From NCBI RefSeq assembly GCF_003002875.1, contig NZ_PVTH01000004.1, positions 248,001-312,000 of the forward strand: a stretch of DNA of 64,000 nucleotides, in the 5' to 3' direction. Position 1 is the first letter of the stretch. Every line of letters begins with the position of its first letter. A program made the translations under genes and the position numbers. The notes beneath the pieces are model-generated. The model did no database searches. It was not told the origin of the DNA and saw only the letters and a program-made list of their open reading frames with translations. This DNA comes from Arcticibacter pallidicorallinus (GTDB lineage Bacteria > Bacteroidota > Bacteroidia > Sphingobacteriales > Sphingobacteriaceae). Below are positions 27,142-58,434 of this stretch, in pieces.

Positions 27142-30100
27142 CTAAGACAGCTGGTTTGAAGAAAGAGATTGGGCAAATTCCTTTGGATTGGATCCAAACC
27201 TTGATTTAAAGCATTTACTGAAATACTTCGGATCATTGAAGCCTACCAGATAGGCGACTTCAGCGATGTTGTCGGTTCCGTTTTCTAAATAAACTTTCGC
27301 TTTATCGAGACGCCTGTCACGGAGAAATTCTACTGGCGTAAGATTGGTGAGACTCTTGAACTTTCTGTAAAATGTGTTCCTTCCCATACTCATTTTTATG
27401 GCCAGATCATCCACACTCAATTCAGAATTTTCCAGACCTTCATCGACGATCCTGATAACATCCAGAAGGAAACTTTCGTCCTTGTTGGTCATGACGACCT
27501 CCTGTGGTCTCCATATATCCGCGACACCGCTTTTCATTTGCTCGAACAAACGACGTCTCTGTACAAGCAGATTTTTTACAGAAACCAAAAGAAATTCGGT
27601 ATCGAATGGTTTCGTGATATAAGCGTCAGCACCGTATTTCAATCCTTCTATCTGGCTTTCTATAGCATGCCTTGCGGTTAAAAGGATAAAGGGGATATGG
27701 CTGGTATCCTGATTTTTCCTCACCAGGTCCAGAAATTGGATGCCATCTAAATTGGGCATCATCACGTCGCTGATGATTAGATCAGGCAGTACTGACGTAG
27801 CCATTTCCATTCCTTCGACACCGTCATTTGCCAGATAGACCTGGTAATGCGACCGAAGCTCGAGCGACAGAAACCAGCGAAGCTCCTTGTTATCTTCAAC
27901 AATCAACACCTTTTGTTTTTCCTGAGCCTGCAGTTCGGGCACCGGGTCCTCCCGCAATGCAGACAGTGAACCGCCTGAAGCTATATCAGCGGTTTCTGCG
28001 TCAGCATCCGACACTACATAATGCTCATCCGCTTCCTCCATATAGGGAAAAGAAAAGCTGACACATAAGCCCCCTTCAGCATTATTAGATGCTGAAACGT
28101 GACCACCATGTAAATTAACCAGTTCCCGCACCAGGGAAAGCCCCACTCCTGTACTCCCCACGGATGTTTTATCCGCCGAATAAACCACATAAAACAAGTC
28201 AAAGATCTTGTCACACGATTTTTCCGGAACGCCCGGTCCTTGATCTCTTACGTCGACCATGATGTCCTTACCATCTTCCGTTCTTCTCAGATAAATTTCT
28301 ATCGACGAATGCGGGGGAGCATACTTCAATGCGTTAGACAAGAGATTTCGGATGATGATCTCCATCTTTTCTTTGTCGGCAACCACATTCAAACACGGCT
28401 CGTCACATCGAACGGCGAGTGATATCGCAGCCTCTTCTGCCGAAGGTCTGAACGTTTCAGCTATATCATTCAACCACTCCGAAAAATCAAACCGGGACAG
28501 GCGAAGTTCGAATTTCTTTTCCTTAAGCCTTCGTACATCTAATAGCTGGTTTACAAATCGCTCCAATACTTTCGCGTTGCTGCGAATCATGCCCGCATAG
28601 TTTCTTTCCTCGCTTGTTAGTGAGTTAGATGACAAAAGCTTGGTAGCGGGACTTAGTATCAGAGTCAGGGGCGTCCTCAGTTCATGTGAAATATTAGTAA
28701 AGAATTCCATCTTCACCTCGCTGAGCTTTTGTTCAAGAATGACCTTGTTCTTCAGGTGTAAGATGGTAAGCAAGAACCTACGGACAAGCACGACAAATAA
28801 AACCACCAGGAGGGCATAGGCCAGATAAGCCCATGAAGTATGCCACCAGGGTGGAGAAATAACAAGCTTCAGTCGCCGGAATGTTCGGTCTGAGTACAAA
28901 TCACTTTCACATTTAATCTCCAGATAATAGACGCCTGGATCTAAGTTGGTAAACGACGCCCGCTGCAGCGAGCCATTCTGCTTCCAGGTACTATCAAGCC
29001 CAATAAGCCTGTAGGAGAAATTATGGTGTGAGTAACGATGGTCTGTTACGCTGAAATCAAAAGTCAAATTGTTCTGGTTATGAAGCAGGTTCACTTCGTC
29101 CAGATATTGTATGTTGATGAATTTATCTCCGGATAGATTGCCTTTGCCCCATTCCTGGTTATTCACCGCAAAACTACTGAACACAATCTGCGACTGGGAA
29201 CTCTTCGGATGCAATTTTCCCAGATCCAGCGATAGGGCACCCACCGATGTTCCCCAGATGATCTCACATGCAGCGTTGTAAGCAATTGCTTTCTCGGCGA
29301 AGCCGAGTGCCTTGAAACCTTCGTTTACGTCGACGTTAACGAATTTATTTGACTTCAGGTCGAGTCTCGAAAGACCTCCTTTGGTCGTTACCCAAAGCGA
29401 TCTTTGCCTGTCTTCCACACAGCTCAGCACGAAGTCGTTTACCAGACCCTGCTCCGTTGAAAAGTTCTGCATCTGCAATTTTCCAAACGCATTCCCCCGA
29501 ACTCGTGTAATTCCTCCCCCCGCTGTACATACCCACATTTCACCTCCTGATCCCAGGTGCAGATATTGTATGTCATTATCTCCAATCCGGCTTTTGATGT
29601 CTTCATGATCACGGATTAACCTCGTCTTTCCAATCCGGTCGTAAATAATCAGGCCGTCTATGGAGGCGATCCATAAATTCCCGTCCCTGTCCGATGTGAT
29701 ATGCCTGATCTTGTCACTTTGATTGCCTCCTAACGCTACGCTACTAAACGTTATTTTATCACTCGATTCATTCAGTTTGAAAAGACCGGCATCAAAAGTT
29801 CCTAGCCATATCTGCTGATCTTTATCCTGATAAATGCTATAGACCTCCTCGCCGAACAAACCACTATTGGTTTTATTGAAGTGAGATAGTGTATAGCTAT
29901 CTTTTTTTTGAGAGCCCGGAACAGCCTTGTAGAGGCCTTTGCCCTTTGTCCCTATCCAAATATTCCCTTCCCGATCTTCCAACAGCGAATAGATGGGTCC
30001 TAAGCCATTCGAAGGCATATTACGAAAATTGACCGGTTGAACCAGGTTCCGTTTACGGACAACCAGATCCCCTCCTTTTGTTCCTGACCATGATCGCCCC

Positions 30101-31464
30101 TGGCGATCGAAAACGATGCTTCTGACCTCTTCTCCCCAGGTCGACCTGGAGCTTTGCTTTAAGCTGGTATGTTTGAAGCTATCATTACCAATAACTAACT
30201 TTACCAGTCCACGTTTTTCCGTCGAGAACCAGGCAATCCCATCAGGATCATAAAACAAATTGGAGATATGCTGAGGAAGCACAATATCCTTCTTGTTCAT
30301 ATCATGAATAGAAAAATTAAATTGCTGTTTCTCTTCATCGAAATAACCAAAGCCACCCCCATTCATACCGATCCATACGGTATGGTTCGGATCTTCAAAC
30401 CCTTCAAAGCGCATATTGGAATTCGCATGATAAAAAGGCGATTTGATAGTAGAGTGATCGCCGGTTATGCTGTTGAAGCGCAGCACTCCTCCATTTCTAA
30501 GTTCGATCCATAAGATACCCTTACTATCTTCAAACAAACCGTATAGCGAGTTTGATGCCTTATGAATAATTCTCCCCCCGCTGCCACCTGAATCCAAAAG
30601 ACATAGTTCTCCCCCTTCCGTTGTGCAAAATAATCTCTGATTTTTTCTCGAACCGCTCAGATGATTGATACTTCCTTCTGAAGACCATATCTTTTTCGCA
30701 GCCTTCGTCTTTTTGTTGAGATAAAAAATAGACTTCTCATTCACAATGCAATAGAGTCCGGACTCATTTTCTACAATTCTGGATATAGAGGCAGCTTTAG
30801 GTAATTCTTCAGAGATACTGCCGACAATAAATTTCCCGGATCTTTGCTGCAACGTGTACAGGCCACTGTTTGTGCCCAGCCATATAATACCATTCCGGTC
30901 TTTCAGAAAGCTATTGACTATGATATTTTCAGGTTCTGAAATCCCTGGAAAAACTATCCGTTGAAGTGATGGATCTTTATCGGAAATAACGTATAAACCA
31001 TCGTTCTCCGACCTAAGCCATACGTTATCTCCATCGACATACAAAATACGGTCAAACAACACCCTCTTCTTTGCACGCTTATCAATTTCAGGCGACAAAG
31101 GATGAAAGACTTCTGCTTTTTTGTCAAACCAGTATAATTGCTTGTCGTAGGTGAGAACCCATAATTTGTCCCCGAGCCCTTCGGCTATTCTAACCATTCG
31201 CCTGCTCTCCAGGTATGATTTCCGGTCTGTTGTTTTCTTAAACGTTCGAAAAGAAGTGCCGTCAAAGCGGTGCAGGCCGTTCCAGGTAGCCATCCACATG
31301 ATACCGTGTCTGTCCTTCGTAATCTTTGAAACAGAACTGTGTGCTAGTCCGTGTTCGGTGGAATAACTAACTAAGCTGTAGTTGGACTGAGCTAGACCGT
31401 GCCTGATTTGGAAAAAGTAGCTAAAAATAATTAGAATAGTTACTTTCAAGTACCAGCCCTTCAT
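27142..31464 (-). CDS. Hybrid two-component system sensor-regulator (HTCS)
   Basis: This 1440-residue regulator senses a glycan fragment in the periplasm and activates the adjacent utilization locus. A signal peptide or anchor comes first. Two-component-regulator propeller repeats fill about residues 30-760 (many GLW/IWLGT motifs), followed by a Y_Y_Y domain, then a membrane helix (SWAYLAYALLVVLFVVLV, about 845-865). The cytoplasmic part has HisKA with FFTNISHELRTPLTLI, an ATPase domain (NLLSNALKYAP, DQGPGVP, GVGLSLV), a receiver (VLIVEDN, DVMMPNLDG, KPFD) and an AraC-type HTH (NTFYRKFKSLTNLTPVEFL). It lies directly upstream of susC, in the same direction, 264 bp away. The ligand is probably a pectin oligosaccharide (inference). 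Confidence 0.96.
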   Translation of the reverse strand: MKGWYLKVTILIIFSYFFQIRHGLAQSNYSLVSYSTEHGLAHSSVSKITKDRHGIMWMATWNGLHRFDGTSFRTFKKTTDRKSYLESRRMVRIAEGLGDKLWVLTYDKQLYWFDKKAEVFHPLSPEIDKRAKKRVLFDRILYVDGDNVWLRSENDGLYVISDKDPSLQRIVFPGISEPENIIVNSFLKDRNGIIWLGTNSGLYTLQQRSGKFIVGSISEELPKAASISRIVENESGLYCIVNEKSIFYLNKKTKAAKKIWSSEGSINHLSGSRKNQRLFCTTEGGELCLLDSGGSGGRIIHKASNSLYGLFEDSKGILWIELRNGGVLRFNSITGDHSTIKSPFYHANSNMRFEGFEDPNHTVWIGMNGGGFGYFDEEKQQFNFSIHDMNKKDIVLPQHISNLFYDPDGIAWFSTEKRGLVKLVIGNDSFKHTSLKQSSRSTWGEEVRSIVFDRQGRSWSGTKGGDLVVRKRNLVQPVNFRNMPSNGLGPIYSLLEDREGNIWIGTKGKGLYKAVPGSQKKDSYTLSHFNKTNSGLFGEEVYSIYQDKDQQIWLGTFDAGLFKLNESSDKITFSSVALGGNQSDKIRHITSDRDGNLWIASIDGLIIYDRIGKTRLIRDHEDIKSRIGDNDIQYLHLGSGGEMWVCTAGGGITRVRGNAFGKLQMQNFSTEQGLVNDFVLSCVEDRQRSLWVTTKGGLSRLDLKSNKFVNVDVNEGFKALGFAEKAIAYNAACEIIWGTSVGALSLDLGKLHPKSSQSQIVFSSFAVNNQEWGKGNLSGDKFINIQYLDEVNLLHNQNNLTFDFSVTDHRYSHHNFSYRLIGLDSTWKQNGSLQRASFTNLDPGVYYLEIKCESDLYSDRTFRRLKLVISPPWWHTSWAYLAYALLVVLFVVLVRRFLLTILHLKNKVILEQKLSEVKMEFFTNISHELRTPLTLILSPATKLLSSNSLTSEERNYAGMIRSNAKVLERFVNQLLDVRRLKEKKFELRLSRFDFSEWLNDIAETFRPSAEEAAISLAVRCDEPCLNVVADKEKMEIIIRNLLSNALKYAPPHSSIEIYLRRTEDGKDIMVDVRDQGPGVPEKSCDKIFDLFYVVYSADKTSVGSTGVGLSLVRELVNLHGGHVSASNNAEGGLCVSFSFPYMEEADEHYVVSDADAETADIASGGSLSALREDPVPELQAQEKQKVLIVEDNKELRWFLSLELRSHYQVYLANDGVEGMEMATSVLPDLIISDVMMPNLDGIQFLDLVRKNQDTSHIPFILLTARHAIESQIEGLKYGADAYITKPFDTEFLLVSVKNLLVQRRRLFEQMKSGVADIWRPQEVVMTNKDESFLLDVIRIVDEGLENSELSVDDLAIKMSMGRNTFYRKFKSLTNLTPVEFLRDRRLDKAKVYLENGTDNIAEVAYLVGFNDPKYFSKCFKSRFGSNPKEFAQSLSSNQLS

Positions 31465-56036: not shown

Positions 56037-57134
56037 TCAATAAACCTTAACCATGTAAATGTAATTGCCTATCTTTTTGATCTGCTCACCTCTATTTAAC
56101 GAGGCCAGCGTATTTTTAGTATTTACCGAAACTTTTCTTCCCAAAGAATCCTTTGGAATAGCATCAATAGCTTCCAGAAGGTAAGCAGACTTGATCGCGA
56201 AGGACGCTCCGTCTGTACGATCCTGCTTTGCGTTTACCACACCTACAACATTTCCTTTGCTGTCAAGTAAAGGACCTCCGCTATTTCCACCATTCACAGA
56301 AATATCTACCTGATAGGCAAGCGTGTCACCAGCGTATCCACTTTTAGAACTTAGATATCCGCGCGTGTAGGTTATATCGTCTTTAGGATAGCCTAAAGTG
56401 TATACATCAAGCCCCAAGTCGGCACCTGACTTTTTAAATGAATATGGAAGTGACTTTGGAAGCTTGAAAGAAGGGTCAGTCACTTTCAATACAGCAATAT
56501 CGTATGATGGGTGGACATAAACTGTCGTTGTTTTGAAAGACTTTCCATCGTTATCCTCGATATAAATAGAGTCCGCTCCTTTAACCACATGATAATTGGT
56601 TACGATATATCCTTCAGTATTTAACGCAAAACCGGTACCTCCGAACAAAGATGGTGCAGAAGGCTCCTTTGTGGTAGCGTTGATATTTTGCAGAATCTCG
56701 TTCTGGGAGCGTTTAACCTTTGTATTGATATCCCGGCTCCACTCTCTGCGAAGGGCATTATAATCCGAACGTATGGAAGTAGCCTTGTTGAAGTAACCTG
56801 TCGAAAATAAAGTAGTGAAAACCGCCATAAGAGCAACAGATGCAGCAACAGCTCCGTTAACACGATACTTTCTCCACATCGTCCTTACCTTCAGTCCGAA
56901 CGGAATCACCTCTTCCCTAATCGACTCCACATCGAGGCTTGAATGAATAGCATTCATTTCAGATATCAGCTTACGGTGCTCACCATAATCTTTCATCTGC
57001 TTAATAAATTGCTCATGCAATACCACCTTCTGGTCCAGATCCGGATCAGAAGCTCTTAATCGTTCAAACGCCGCAGCCTCCTCCGCAGACATTTCGTCTA
57101 ATAAATATGCTTCAATCTGTTCTGTAATATCCAT
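56037..57134 (-). CDS. Membrane trypsin-like serine protease with anti-sigma-like N-terminus
   Basis: In this 365-residue protein, residues 1-65 (IEAYLLDEMSAEEAAAFERL, and DPDLDQKVVLHEQF) look like the cytoplasmic part of Bacteroidota anti-sigma factors. A membrane helix follows (about 93-114). The periplasmic part is a HtrA-type S1C protease: His182 in VTNYHVVKG, Asp212 in YDIAVLKV and Ser285 in NGGNSGGPLLD. There is no PDZ domain. It lies 13 bp after the ECF sigma gene, in one operon. It may sense envelope stress and release the sigma factor; the topology supports that, the function is inference. Confidence 0.8.
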   Translation of the reverse strand: MDITEQIEAYLLDEMSAEEAAAFERLRASDPDLDQKVVLHEQFIKQMKDYGEHRKLISEMNAIHSSLDVESIREEVIPFGLKVRTMWRKYRVNGAVAASVALMAVFTTLFSTGYFNKATSIRSDYNALRREWSRDINTKVKRSQNEILQNINATTKEPSAPSLFGGTGFALNTEGYIVTNYHVVKGADSIYIEDNDGKSFKTTTVYVHPSYDIAVLKVTDPSFKLPKSLPYSFKKSGADLGLDVYTLGYPKDDITYTRGYLSSKSGYAGDTLAYQVDISVNGGNSGGPLLDSKGNVVGVVNAKQDRTDGASFAIKSAYLLEAIDAIPKDSLGRKVSVNTKNTLASLNRGEQIKKIGNYIYMVKVY

Positions 57135-57714: not shown

Positions 57715-57744
57715 TATTTATACCTTTTTAAGAAATTTGTAACC
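57715..57744 (-). promoter_or_regulatory. Putative ECF-dependent promoter of the sigma factor gene
   Basis: On the minus strand GGTTAC (57744-57739), 14 bp, then GGTATAAATA (57724-57715). It resembles the two lipoprotein promoters with the same spacing, but GTAT is the only strictly shared core of the second box. The box ends only 9 bp before the ATG, so the leader would be very short. Confidence 0.45.
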
Positions 57745-57788
57745 CAATGATAAGTAAAATTAAAAAGAAAAAAATACTGAGTTATATG

Positions 57789-57818
57789 GGTTACTTTTCG
57801 GGAGACCTCGTATTAACA
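57789..57818 (+). promoter_or_regulatory. Putative ECF-dependent promoter of small lipoprotein 1
   Basis: GGTTAC (57789-57794), 14 bp, then CGTATTAACA (57809-57818), 35 bp before the ATG at 57854. The same two elements with the same spacing precede small lipoprotein 2. The GGTTAC/CGTAT pair is like -35/-10 elements of ECF sigma factors (inference). Confidence 0.6.
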
Positions 57819-57853
57819 GTAAATTGTTTGTAAAAAATCATAAAGACATTAAA

Positions 57854-58048
57854 ATGAAAAATCTAGTAAAATTCGGTTTCTTAGCATTGGCTATCACTTT
57901 AACAGCATCTGCTTGTAACTCTACCAAAACTGAAAGTGGTGCTGACTCTACTTTAGTAGATTCTGCTACAACTGACACTACTATGTTATCTGATACTACT
58001 GCTGTTCTTGATTCAACTGTAGTTGTTGATTCAACAGTAGCTCAATAA
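57854..58048 (+). CDS. Small lipoprotein 1 (Ser/Thr/Asp-rich)
   Basis: This 64-residue protein starts MKNLVKFGFLALAITLTASA, lipobox TASAC, then a tail of Thr, Ser, Asp and Val repeats (TTDTTMLSDTTAVLDSTVVV). It is an outer-leaflet or periplasmic lipoprotein of unknown function. I start at the ATG at 57854, because the longer frame from 57824 adds MFVKNHKDIK in front of a normal signal peptide. It is a tandem paralogue of the next gene, about 75% identical in the first 24 residues. Both share the promoter signature, so they are probably expressed together under the ECF sigma factor. Confidence 0.75.
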   Translation: MKNLVKFGFLALAITLTASACNSTKTESGADSTLVDSATTDTTMLSDTTAVLDSTVVVDSTVAQ

Positions 58049-58091
58049 TTATTGAGAAAAAGCGAGAAATAAATTTCAATTTATTTTCTCG
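58041..58091 (+). terminator. Palindromes after small lipoprotein 1, terminator-like
   Basis: The 16-bp perfect palindrome CTCAATAATTATTGAG (58041-58056) overlaps the stop codon. It is followed by an imperfect hairpin with CGAGAAATAAAT (58063-58074) and ATTTATTTTCTCG (58079-58091). Together they may end or stabilise the transcript before the promoter of the next gene at 58098. Confidence 0.55.
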
Positions 58092-58097
58092 AATAAA

Positions 58098-58127
58098 GGT
58101 TACCTATTAGAAATACCCGTATTAACA
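58098..58127 (+). promoter_or_regulatory. Putative ECF-dependent promoter of small lipoprotein 2
   Basis: GGTTAC (58098-58103), 14 bp, CGTATTAACA (58118-58127), 21 bp before the ATG at 58149. Both elements are identical to the copy upstream of lipoprotein 1 although the spacer sequence differs, which argues that they are functional elements. Confidence 0.6.
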
Positions 58128-58397: not shown

Positions 58398-58434
58398 AAA
58401 ACCTGTAACTTGAATAAGTTACAGGTTTTTTTTT
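58398..58434 (+). terminator. Rho-independent terminator after small lipoprotein 2
   Basis: A 14-bp perfect stem (AAAACCTGTAACTT at 58398-58411 with AAGTTACAGGTTTT at 58416-58429) and a 4-base loop, followed by a run of T to 58434. Confidence 0.92.

Follow-up and report, generated by a model that had tools for sequence, protein, structure and literature searches.

Within the window, by which we mean the whole 64 kb stretch of DNA that was analysed, an ECF sigma factor gene is followed by the gene of a partner protein that combines a candidate anti-sigma domain with an HtrA/DegS-like protease, and lies next to two genes for tiny lipoproteins on the opposite strand (Table 1). The sigma protein passes the curated cut-offs of two families, with its region 4 scoring below threshold (12.6 vs 24.1 bits).

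Table 1. Positions in the window of the genes, domains and predicted regulatory elements of the locus.
Feature	Position	Strand	Remarks
Candidate anti-sigma-protease gene, 365 aa	56037..57134	-	13 nt after sigma gene
HtrA/DegS-like protease domain	56175..56657	-	H182, D212, S285; PF13365 90.8 bits (cut-off 27.6)
ECF sigma factor gene, 188 aa	57148..57714	-	GTG start; TIGR02937 72.7 bits (cut-off 42.9), PF04542 (sigma-70 region 2) 27.8 bits (cut-off 24)
Predicted ECF-type promoter, sigma gene	57715..57744	-	GGTTAC-N14-GGTATAAATA; strict site in 30/30 own-family loci
Predicted ECF-type promoter, lipoprotein gene 1	57789..57818	+	GGTTAC-N14-CGTATTAACA
Lipoprotein gene 1, 64 aa	57854..58048	+	Lipobox SASAC (by eye), acidic D/S/T-rich tail
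Predicted ECF-type promoter, lipoprotein gene 2	58098..58127	+	GGTTAC-N14-CGTATTAACA
Lipoprotein gene 2, 69 aa	58149..58358	+	Lipobox SASAC (by eye), D/S/A-rich tail, three 33-nt repeats
Terminator-like hairpin after lipoprotein gene 2	58398..58429	+	14 pairs, then T run; 1 found vs 0.4 expected in shuffles

Promoter-like sites at the locus

According to the sequence-only reading, the hexamer GGTTAC and a 10-base box recur in identical form before both lipoprotein genes, 14 nt apart and with differing spacers, and a third copy precedes the ECF gene on the opposite strand (read from 57744 to 57715); the first statement can be verified directly in the sequence, and the second holds as well. A pattern search with GGTTAC-N14-SGTAT returned exactly three matches in the window, all at the sigma/lipoprotein locus (57720-57744 on the reverse strand, 57789-57813 and 58098-58122 on the forward strand), against a mean of 0.02 in dinucleotide shuffles, none of 100 of which reached three. 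A scan for sigma-70-type promoters found 6 matches, where shuffles average 3.9 (sd 2.3).

The ECF site abuts the GTG start of the sigma gene (57714), so that a very short leader or a leaderless mRNA is predicted. In-frame GTG or TTG starts, mostly GTG, are found 2-3 nt past the -10 element in 25 of 30 own-family loci, and a gap of this length between the -10 element and the ECF start predicts leaderless or nearly leaderless mRNAs in these relatives too. Leaderless mRNAs account for 5.5% in Flavobacterium psychrophilum (PMC9723704).

Conservation of the sites and the module in relatives

We found a full-length partner in 31 of the 37 own-family genomes tested, the window's own genome included, and a profile search over 247 genomes of the class (Bacteroidia) recovered a near full-length one in 35 genomes of nine families at E 6e-77 or better, a count that is drawn from the matches listed and likewise includes the own genome. 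The next matches among those listed begin at model position 85 at least, and thus miss the N-terminal domain. Relatives among the matches listed include Daejeonella, Mucilaginibacter, Pedobacter, Sphingobacterium, Chitinophaga and Hymenobacter.

Each of the 30 own-family loci examined (of 31 module-bearing genomes) has a strict site immediately ahead of the ECF gene; as the search pattern itself demanded the boxes in this set, the independent evidence lies in their presence at that place and in a flanking G and CTTTT. In a pattern-free dyad test on the stretch upstream of the ECF gene, for which 76 loci were reduced to 69 by dropping near-identical sigma proteins, GTTAC-N17-ATTAA and its one-base shift came out on top, in 46 of the 69 loci, compared with at most 7 loci for the top dyad of any of 20 shuffled sets; dyads inside the coding gene reach 35 of 69 loci, from conserved coding sequence. 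Three loci were excluded from this test, as no ECF open reading frame had been called in them (L118, L120 and L221, the last at a contig end). Counted over the same 69 loci, GGTTAC is present upstream of the ECF gene in 68 (L227 being the sole locus without it), GGGTTAC in 66, and the strict site in 57 in the stretch used. The -10 element may read GAATTAA or GTATAAA in distant families. For the lipoprotein promoters, the consensus extends to GGGTTACCTTTT-N10-GGTATTAA.

On the strength of the 30 own-family loci and of the top dyad in the 69-locus set, the proposal that the three sites form an autoregulated ECF promoter set is well supported by comparative genomics: as far as sequences can tell, the signature behaves as expected of an autoregulated ECF promoter, standing before the sigma gene and its putative targets and being conserved in relatives.

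Size of the regulon

Extended to the whole genome, as had been suggested together with the sites, the search with GGTTAC-N14-SGTAT bears out the three sites at the locus and not the remaining four, which are not clearly above chance. The 4.1 Mb genome contains 7 matches against 2 for the pattern read backwards, and a stricter form with GTATWAA has 4, three of them at the locus, against 0 for the control. We also tried and rejected a wider regulon in this genome: with up to 2 mismatches allowed, 9 sites are found and the backward control has 6. The lipoprotein sites at the locus account for two of these 9, and the ECF site is not matched by the pattern used. With its off-locus sites near chance, the regulon in the window's genome looks tiny.

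Strict sites number 271 over 101 family genomes, compared with 49 for the backward control. Ten genomes were read closely. In nine of them the roughly 1.5 kb flanking the ECF site in each direction contains no lipoprotein gene of the type seen in the window, whereas G020 does have one there, and in all nine the promoter precedes a lipoprotein of the same type elsewhere in the genome, which supports the suggestion, again from comparison of sequences, that small lipoproteins are targets. The 32 sites in these ten genomes comprise 10 before the ECF gene, 11 before lipoprotein genes, 1 before a DUF4349 lipoprotein gene and 10 others (7 inside open reading frames); nine of the 11 lipoprotein genes start 41-49 nt on from the site, and the remaining two start 18 nt from it, at an in-frame upstream start.

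In a further sample of 20 hand-picked off-locus stretches, 19 of them among the matches listed for family genomes, three sites lie before lipoproteins of the same type (L181, L184, L185), three before DUF4294 genes, and two are followed by DUF4349 lipoprotein genes (L186, L196), the other twelve being associated with other genes, overlapping open reading frames or no near open reading frame. The DUF4294 genes occur in three genomes of one genus (L192 270-887, L193 270-881, L195 269-880), each preceded at about 41 nt by a GGTTACATTCT-type site, and are a possible lineage-specific target of the sigma factor. The DUF4349 lipoprotein genes, a possible further target, start at varying distances from their sites: 21 nt in L186 (568-1452, reverse strand), about 60 nt in L252 (1591-2397) and 291 nt in L196 (519-1379).

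The lipoproteins

Both lipoproteins of the window have the signal region in common (26 of 33 residues), and their D/S/T/A-rich tails differ. Across relatives, 64 of 86 neighbouring lipoprotein open reading frames, chosen by a signal-peptide and composition filter and with some genomes counted twice, have a site within 140 nt, at a median of 36 nt from the end of the -10 element to the ATG; of the 22 without a site by the relaxed pattern, 11 keep GGTTACC with a -10 element that, by eye, is degenerate.

Membership in the PG1828 family (NF050142), whose lipoproteins are likewise tiny and have a similar signal peptide and size, was considered and rejected, as lipoproteins 1 and 2, at 38.7 and 32.4 bits, stay below its cut-off of 50. 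Matches to NF050142 occur in 120 of 149 genomes of the class, 6 of them over the cut-off, and also in 3 of 14 controls, one over the cut-off, so weak matches to this model say little. One own-family genome (G018) passes the cut-off beside the sigma gene, with neighbouring copies summed; in the other five of the six (L071-L074, L077), no relative of the sigma factor was seen within 1.5 kb. We take PG1827 and PG1828 to be neighbours in Porphyromonas gingivalis. Rows of short frames (52-61 aa) in contig C94 of G025 (29781-30630, reverse strand) and contig C8 of G000 (73024-73295, reverse strand) weakly match the lipoprotein signal model and are possible further arrays of tiny lipoproteins.

The partner protein

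The partner consists of a candidate anti-sigma domain (residues 1-76), a membrane stretch, a linker, a DegS-like protease (about residues 160-320) and a C-terminal tail. Its AlphaFold2 model (mean pLDDT 79.9) has helices over residues 3-76 and a long helix over 81-111, within or just after which the membrane stretch was placed by eye, followed by the protease; residues 116-129 and 141-159 are poorly predicted (pLDDT under 50). The protease domain clearly exceeds the PF13365 cut-off (Table 1), with profile matches to MucD, DegP, DegS and AlgW, its closest structural matches are DegS minus its PDZ domain, and its H182, D212 and S285 are conserved in all 79 aligned partner rows, in which the window gene is counted twice and some genomes are doubled (L022/L103, L031/L106, L109/L209). 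A PDZ domain was not found among the six families matching the window protein, nor among the 25 inspected of the 37 families matching 29 relatives. The C-terminal tail (56040-56117, reverse strand; consensus QIKK...YxxMVKVY) lies beyond the matched protease domain and is well conserved; ending in VKVY, it occupies the position where DegS has its PDZ domain.

Folded alone, the N-terminal 83 residues reach a mean pLDDT of 85.4. A Foldseek search with this domain gave 12 weak matches (E 3 or worse), the first seven of which are chains of sigma/anti-sigma entries, taken as the anti-sigma partner from chain letter and length. VIA-align scored the domain at Z 6.2 against the RsiW entry (rmsd 4.8, 68 aligned), Z 5.7 against RslA (rmsd 5.4, 61 aligned), Z 4.8 against the SigK-partner entry (rmsd 10.3, 72 aligned) and Z 4.7 against PupR (rmsd 2.2, 50 aligned), compared with Z 2.5 for the only other row listed, all values below about 13, where Z may reflect a common helical arrangement. 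At the sequence level, no family matches the N-terminal domain above its curated cut-off, and a search of solved structures with the N-terminal profile found no clear relative, the best match (E 0.007) being to an unspecified fusion protein. The zf-HC2 model, often met in anti-sigma factors, scores 18.3 against a cut-off of 22.2 bits on the window domain and is weakly present in 7 of 18 N-terminal domains and 12 of 29 whole proteins, making it the most frequent Pfam model for these domains. No His/Cys zinc motif was found, as residues 1-83 of the partner contain no cysteine in the window's copy; many class I anti-sigma domains are without zinc. The ECF gene directly precedes the partner gene in 76 of 79 loci (30/30, 19/21 and 27/28), one of the three misses being at a contig end. 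Taken together, fold matches and gene order make an anti-sigma role of the partner likely.

Proposed mechanism and alternatives

We consider it likely, taking the parts jointly, that the sites are promoters recognised by the sigma factor, that the partner is a self-cleaving anti-sigma-protease and that the lipoproteins are the main output. In the mechanism that we infer, the ECF sigma factor encoded next to the three sites would recognise all of them, and they would drive both the operon of the sigma factor and the anti-sigma-protease, giving positive autoregulation, and the two tiny lipoproteins. The partner would be an anti-sigma factor anchored in the membrane: its helices in the cytoplasm would bind the sigma factor at rest, and its extracytoplasmic half is a DegS-like serine protease devoid of a PDZ domain. 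Upon an envelope signal, the protease would cleave the linker of anti-sigma molecules immediately beyond the membrane, probably with neighbouring molecules of an oligomer cutting one another, after which an RseP-type protease would cut within the membrane and free the sigma factor. One RseP-type M50 protease is encoded in the genome, and since such a protease is also present in all 14 control genomes, its presence here is only permissive. We know of no switch for the PDZ-less protease of the partner. That an HtrA protease can remove its own membrane anchor, between molecules and when given an unstructured substrate, is described in a published study (PMC5359297), which makes a self-cut in the linker of the partner plausible. 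The set of sigma factor, protease and lipoproteins may be a compact envelope alarm system.

A doubtful extension of this mechanism, which we would not expect to hold, closes the loop: given their disordered appearance and their putative place as main output, the lipoproteins may in turn influence the protease, which is a guess. The fused protease would then read lipoprotein traffic by means of its own acidic, probably disordered lipoproteins, those stuck at the inner membrane serving as ligands or substrates that trigger the self-cut and plentiful ones competing it away, so that the main output would also be the signal.

The alternative that survives best accepts the promoter set and has the protease spare its own anti-sigma chain, acting as a sensor that binds the signal, or as a quality-control protease for other substrates, alongside a separate first cutter. 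We regard it as somewhat unlikely: the genome does encode at least one further HtrA-type protein (the second match, a 513-aa frame) that could perform site-1 cleavage, and the family search with the window protein found no PDZ switch in the partner, but the catalytic residues are kept in every aligned row across diverged families and the closest solved folds are those of DegS, itself a site-1 protease. It is very improbable that the 365-aa partner, though an HtrA protease anchored in the membrane, has no anti-sigma function and is merely co-transcribed; its N-terminal family matches are all sub-threshold, as such a reading would have it, yet the ECF gene stands directly before it in nearly all loci, the predicted helices resemble anti-sigma entries above other matches, and zf-HC2 is the commonest Pfam model.

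Very improbable, too, is a reading of the sites as operators of another regulator, or as promoters of a different ECF factor, that lie at the locus by chance. Two of the six family genomes without the module, among which two are incomplete assemblies, still show pattern matches, but all 31 module-bearing genomes of the own family have a site (31 of 31 against 2 of 6, Fisher p 2.3e-4), and across genomes the sites track the sigma/anti-sigma module, with GGTTAC right before the sigma gene at all but one of the 69 loci. The spacing of the GGTTAC and SGTAT boxes also resembles that of ECF promoters. That the promoters of the two lipoprotein genes are alike merely because of the tandem duplication of these genes, which have a 102-nt repeat of 78% identity in common, is already contradicted and almost certainly wrong, as the repeat begins at 57832 (14 nt past the first box) and at 58127 (the last base of the second box), so that the boxes lie outside it and out of register and did not just come along with the copied stretch, the 14-nt spacers differ between identical boxes, and neither the ECF copy of the site nor those in relatives belong to the duplication.

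Our preferred reading of a sigma factor held by a self-cleaving anti-sigma-protease places the more unusual part of the locus in the fused protein, which was absent from the sequence-only reading. The module supplies a conserved promoter together with a sigma factor, and a first way into the regulation of these tiny lipoproteins; its regulon, if the reading is true, is small enough to be tested in full.

Comparison with known systems

Only 6% of Bacteroidetes ECF factors have a recognisable class I anti-sigma neighbour, according to a survey of class I anti-sigma factors (PMC7406223). The anti-sigma domain described here scores below cut-offs, so standard models can miss such modules. The multi-domain anti-sigma factors of Bacteroidota (PMC9308784, PMC13088901) likewise follow ECF sigma factors and are linked to envelope functions; as described in these papers, they extend to the outer membrane and have a predicted beta-barrel, whereas the partner has a protease and no barrel. 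The outer-membrane beta-barrel of the Dma anti-sigma family is not seen in the partner, a protein of 365 aa with a protease as its C-terminal part. The SM6 motif of Flavobacterium psychrophilum comprises predicted ECF promoters, including those of type IX secretion genes, and the accessible part of its description has no lipoprotein/HtrA module like that of the window. HtrAw of Brevibacillus (PMC5359297) is also a membrane-anchored HtrA and removes its own N-terminal anchor on unstructured substrate but, unlike the partner, is described there with a PDZ domain and without an anti-sigma domain. We found no anti-sigma factor fused to its own HtrA-type protease in the literature searched, which was mainly open-access; the ingredients are each known, and it is their combination that was not found there.

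The sigma-E, RseA, DegS and RseP proteins of Escherichia coli form an envelope stress pathway (PMC8103513). Like the locus of the window and its genome in our reading, this pathway has an ECF sigma factor, a membrane-spanning anti-sigma factor, a DegS-like periplasmic protease, an RseP-type protease and an autoregulated promoter. In contrast to E. coli, the regulon in the window's genome is apparently limited to the sigma factor's own operon and two lipoproteins, and the putative inhibitor and the site-1 protease, in which no PDZ domain was found, are one polypeptide, as if RseA and DegS had been fused; if this reading is true, the first cut and the inhibition of the sigma factor, perhaps together with sensing, are merged in a single chain.
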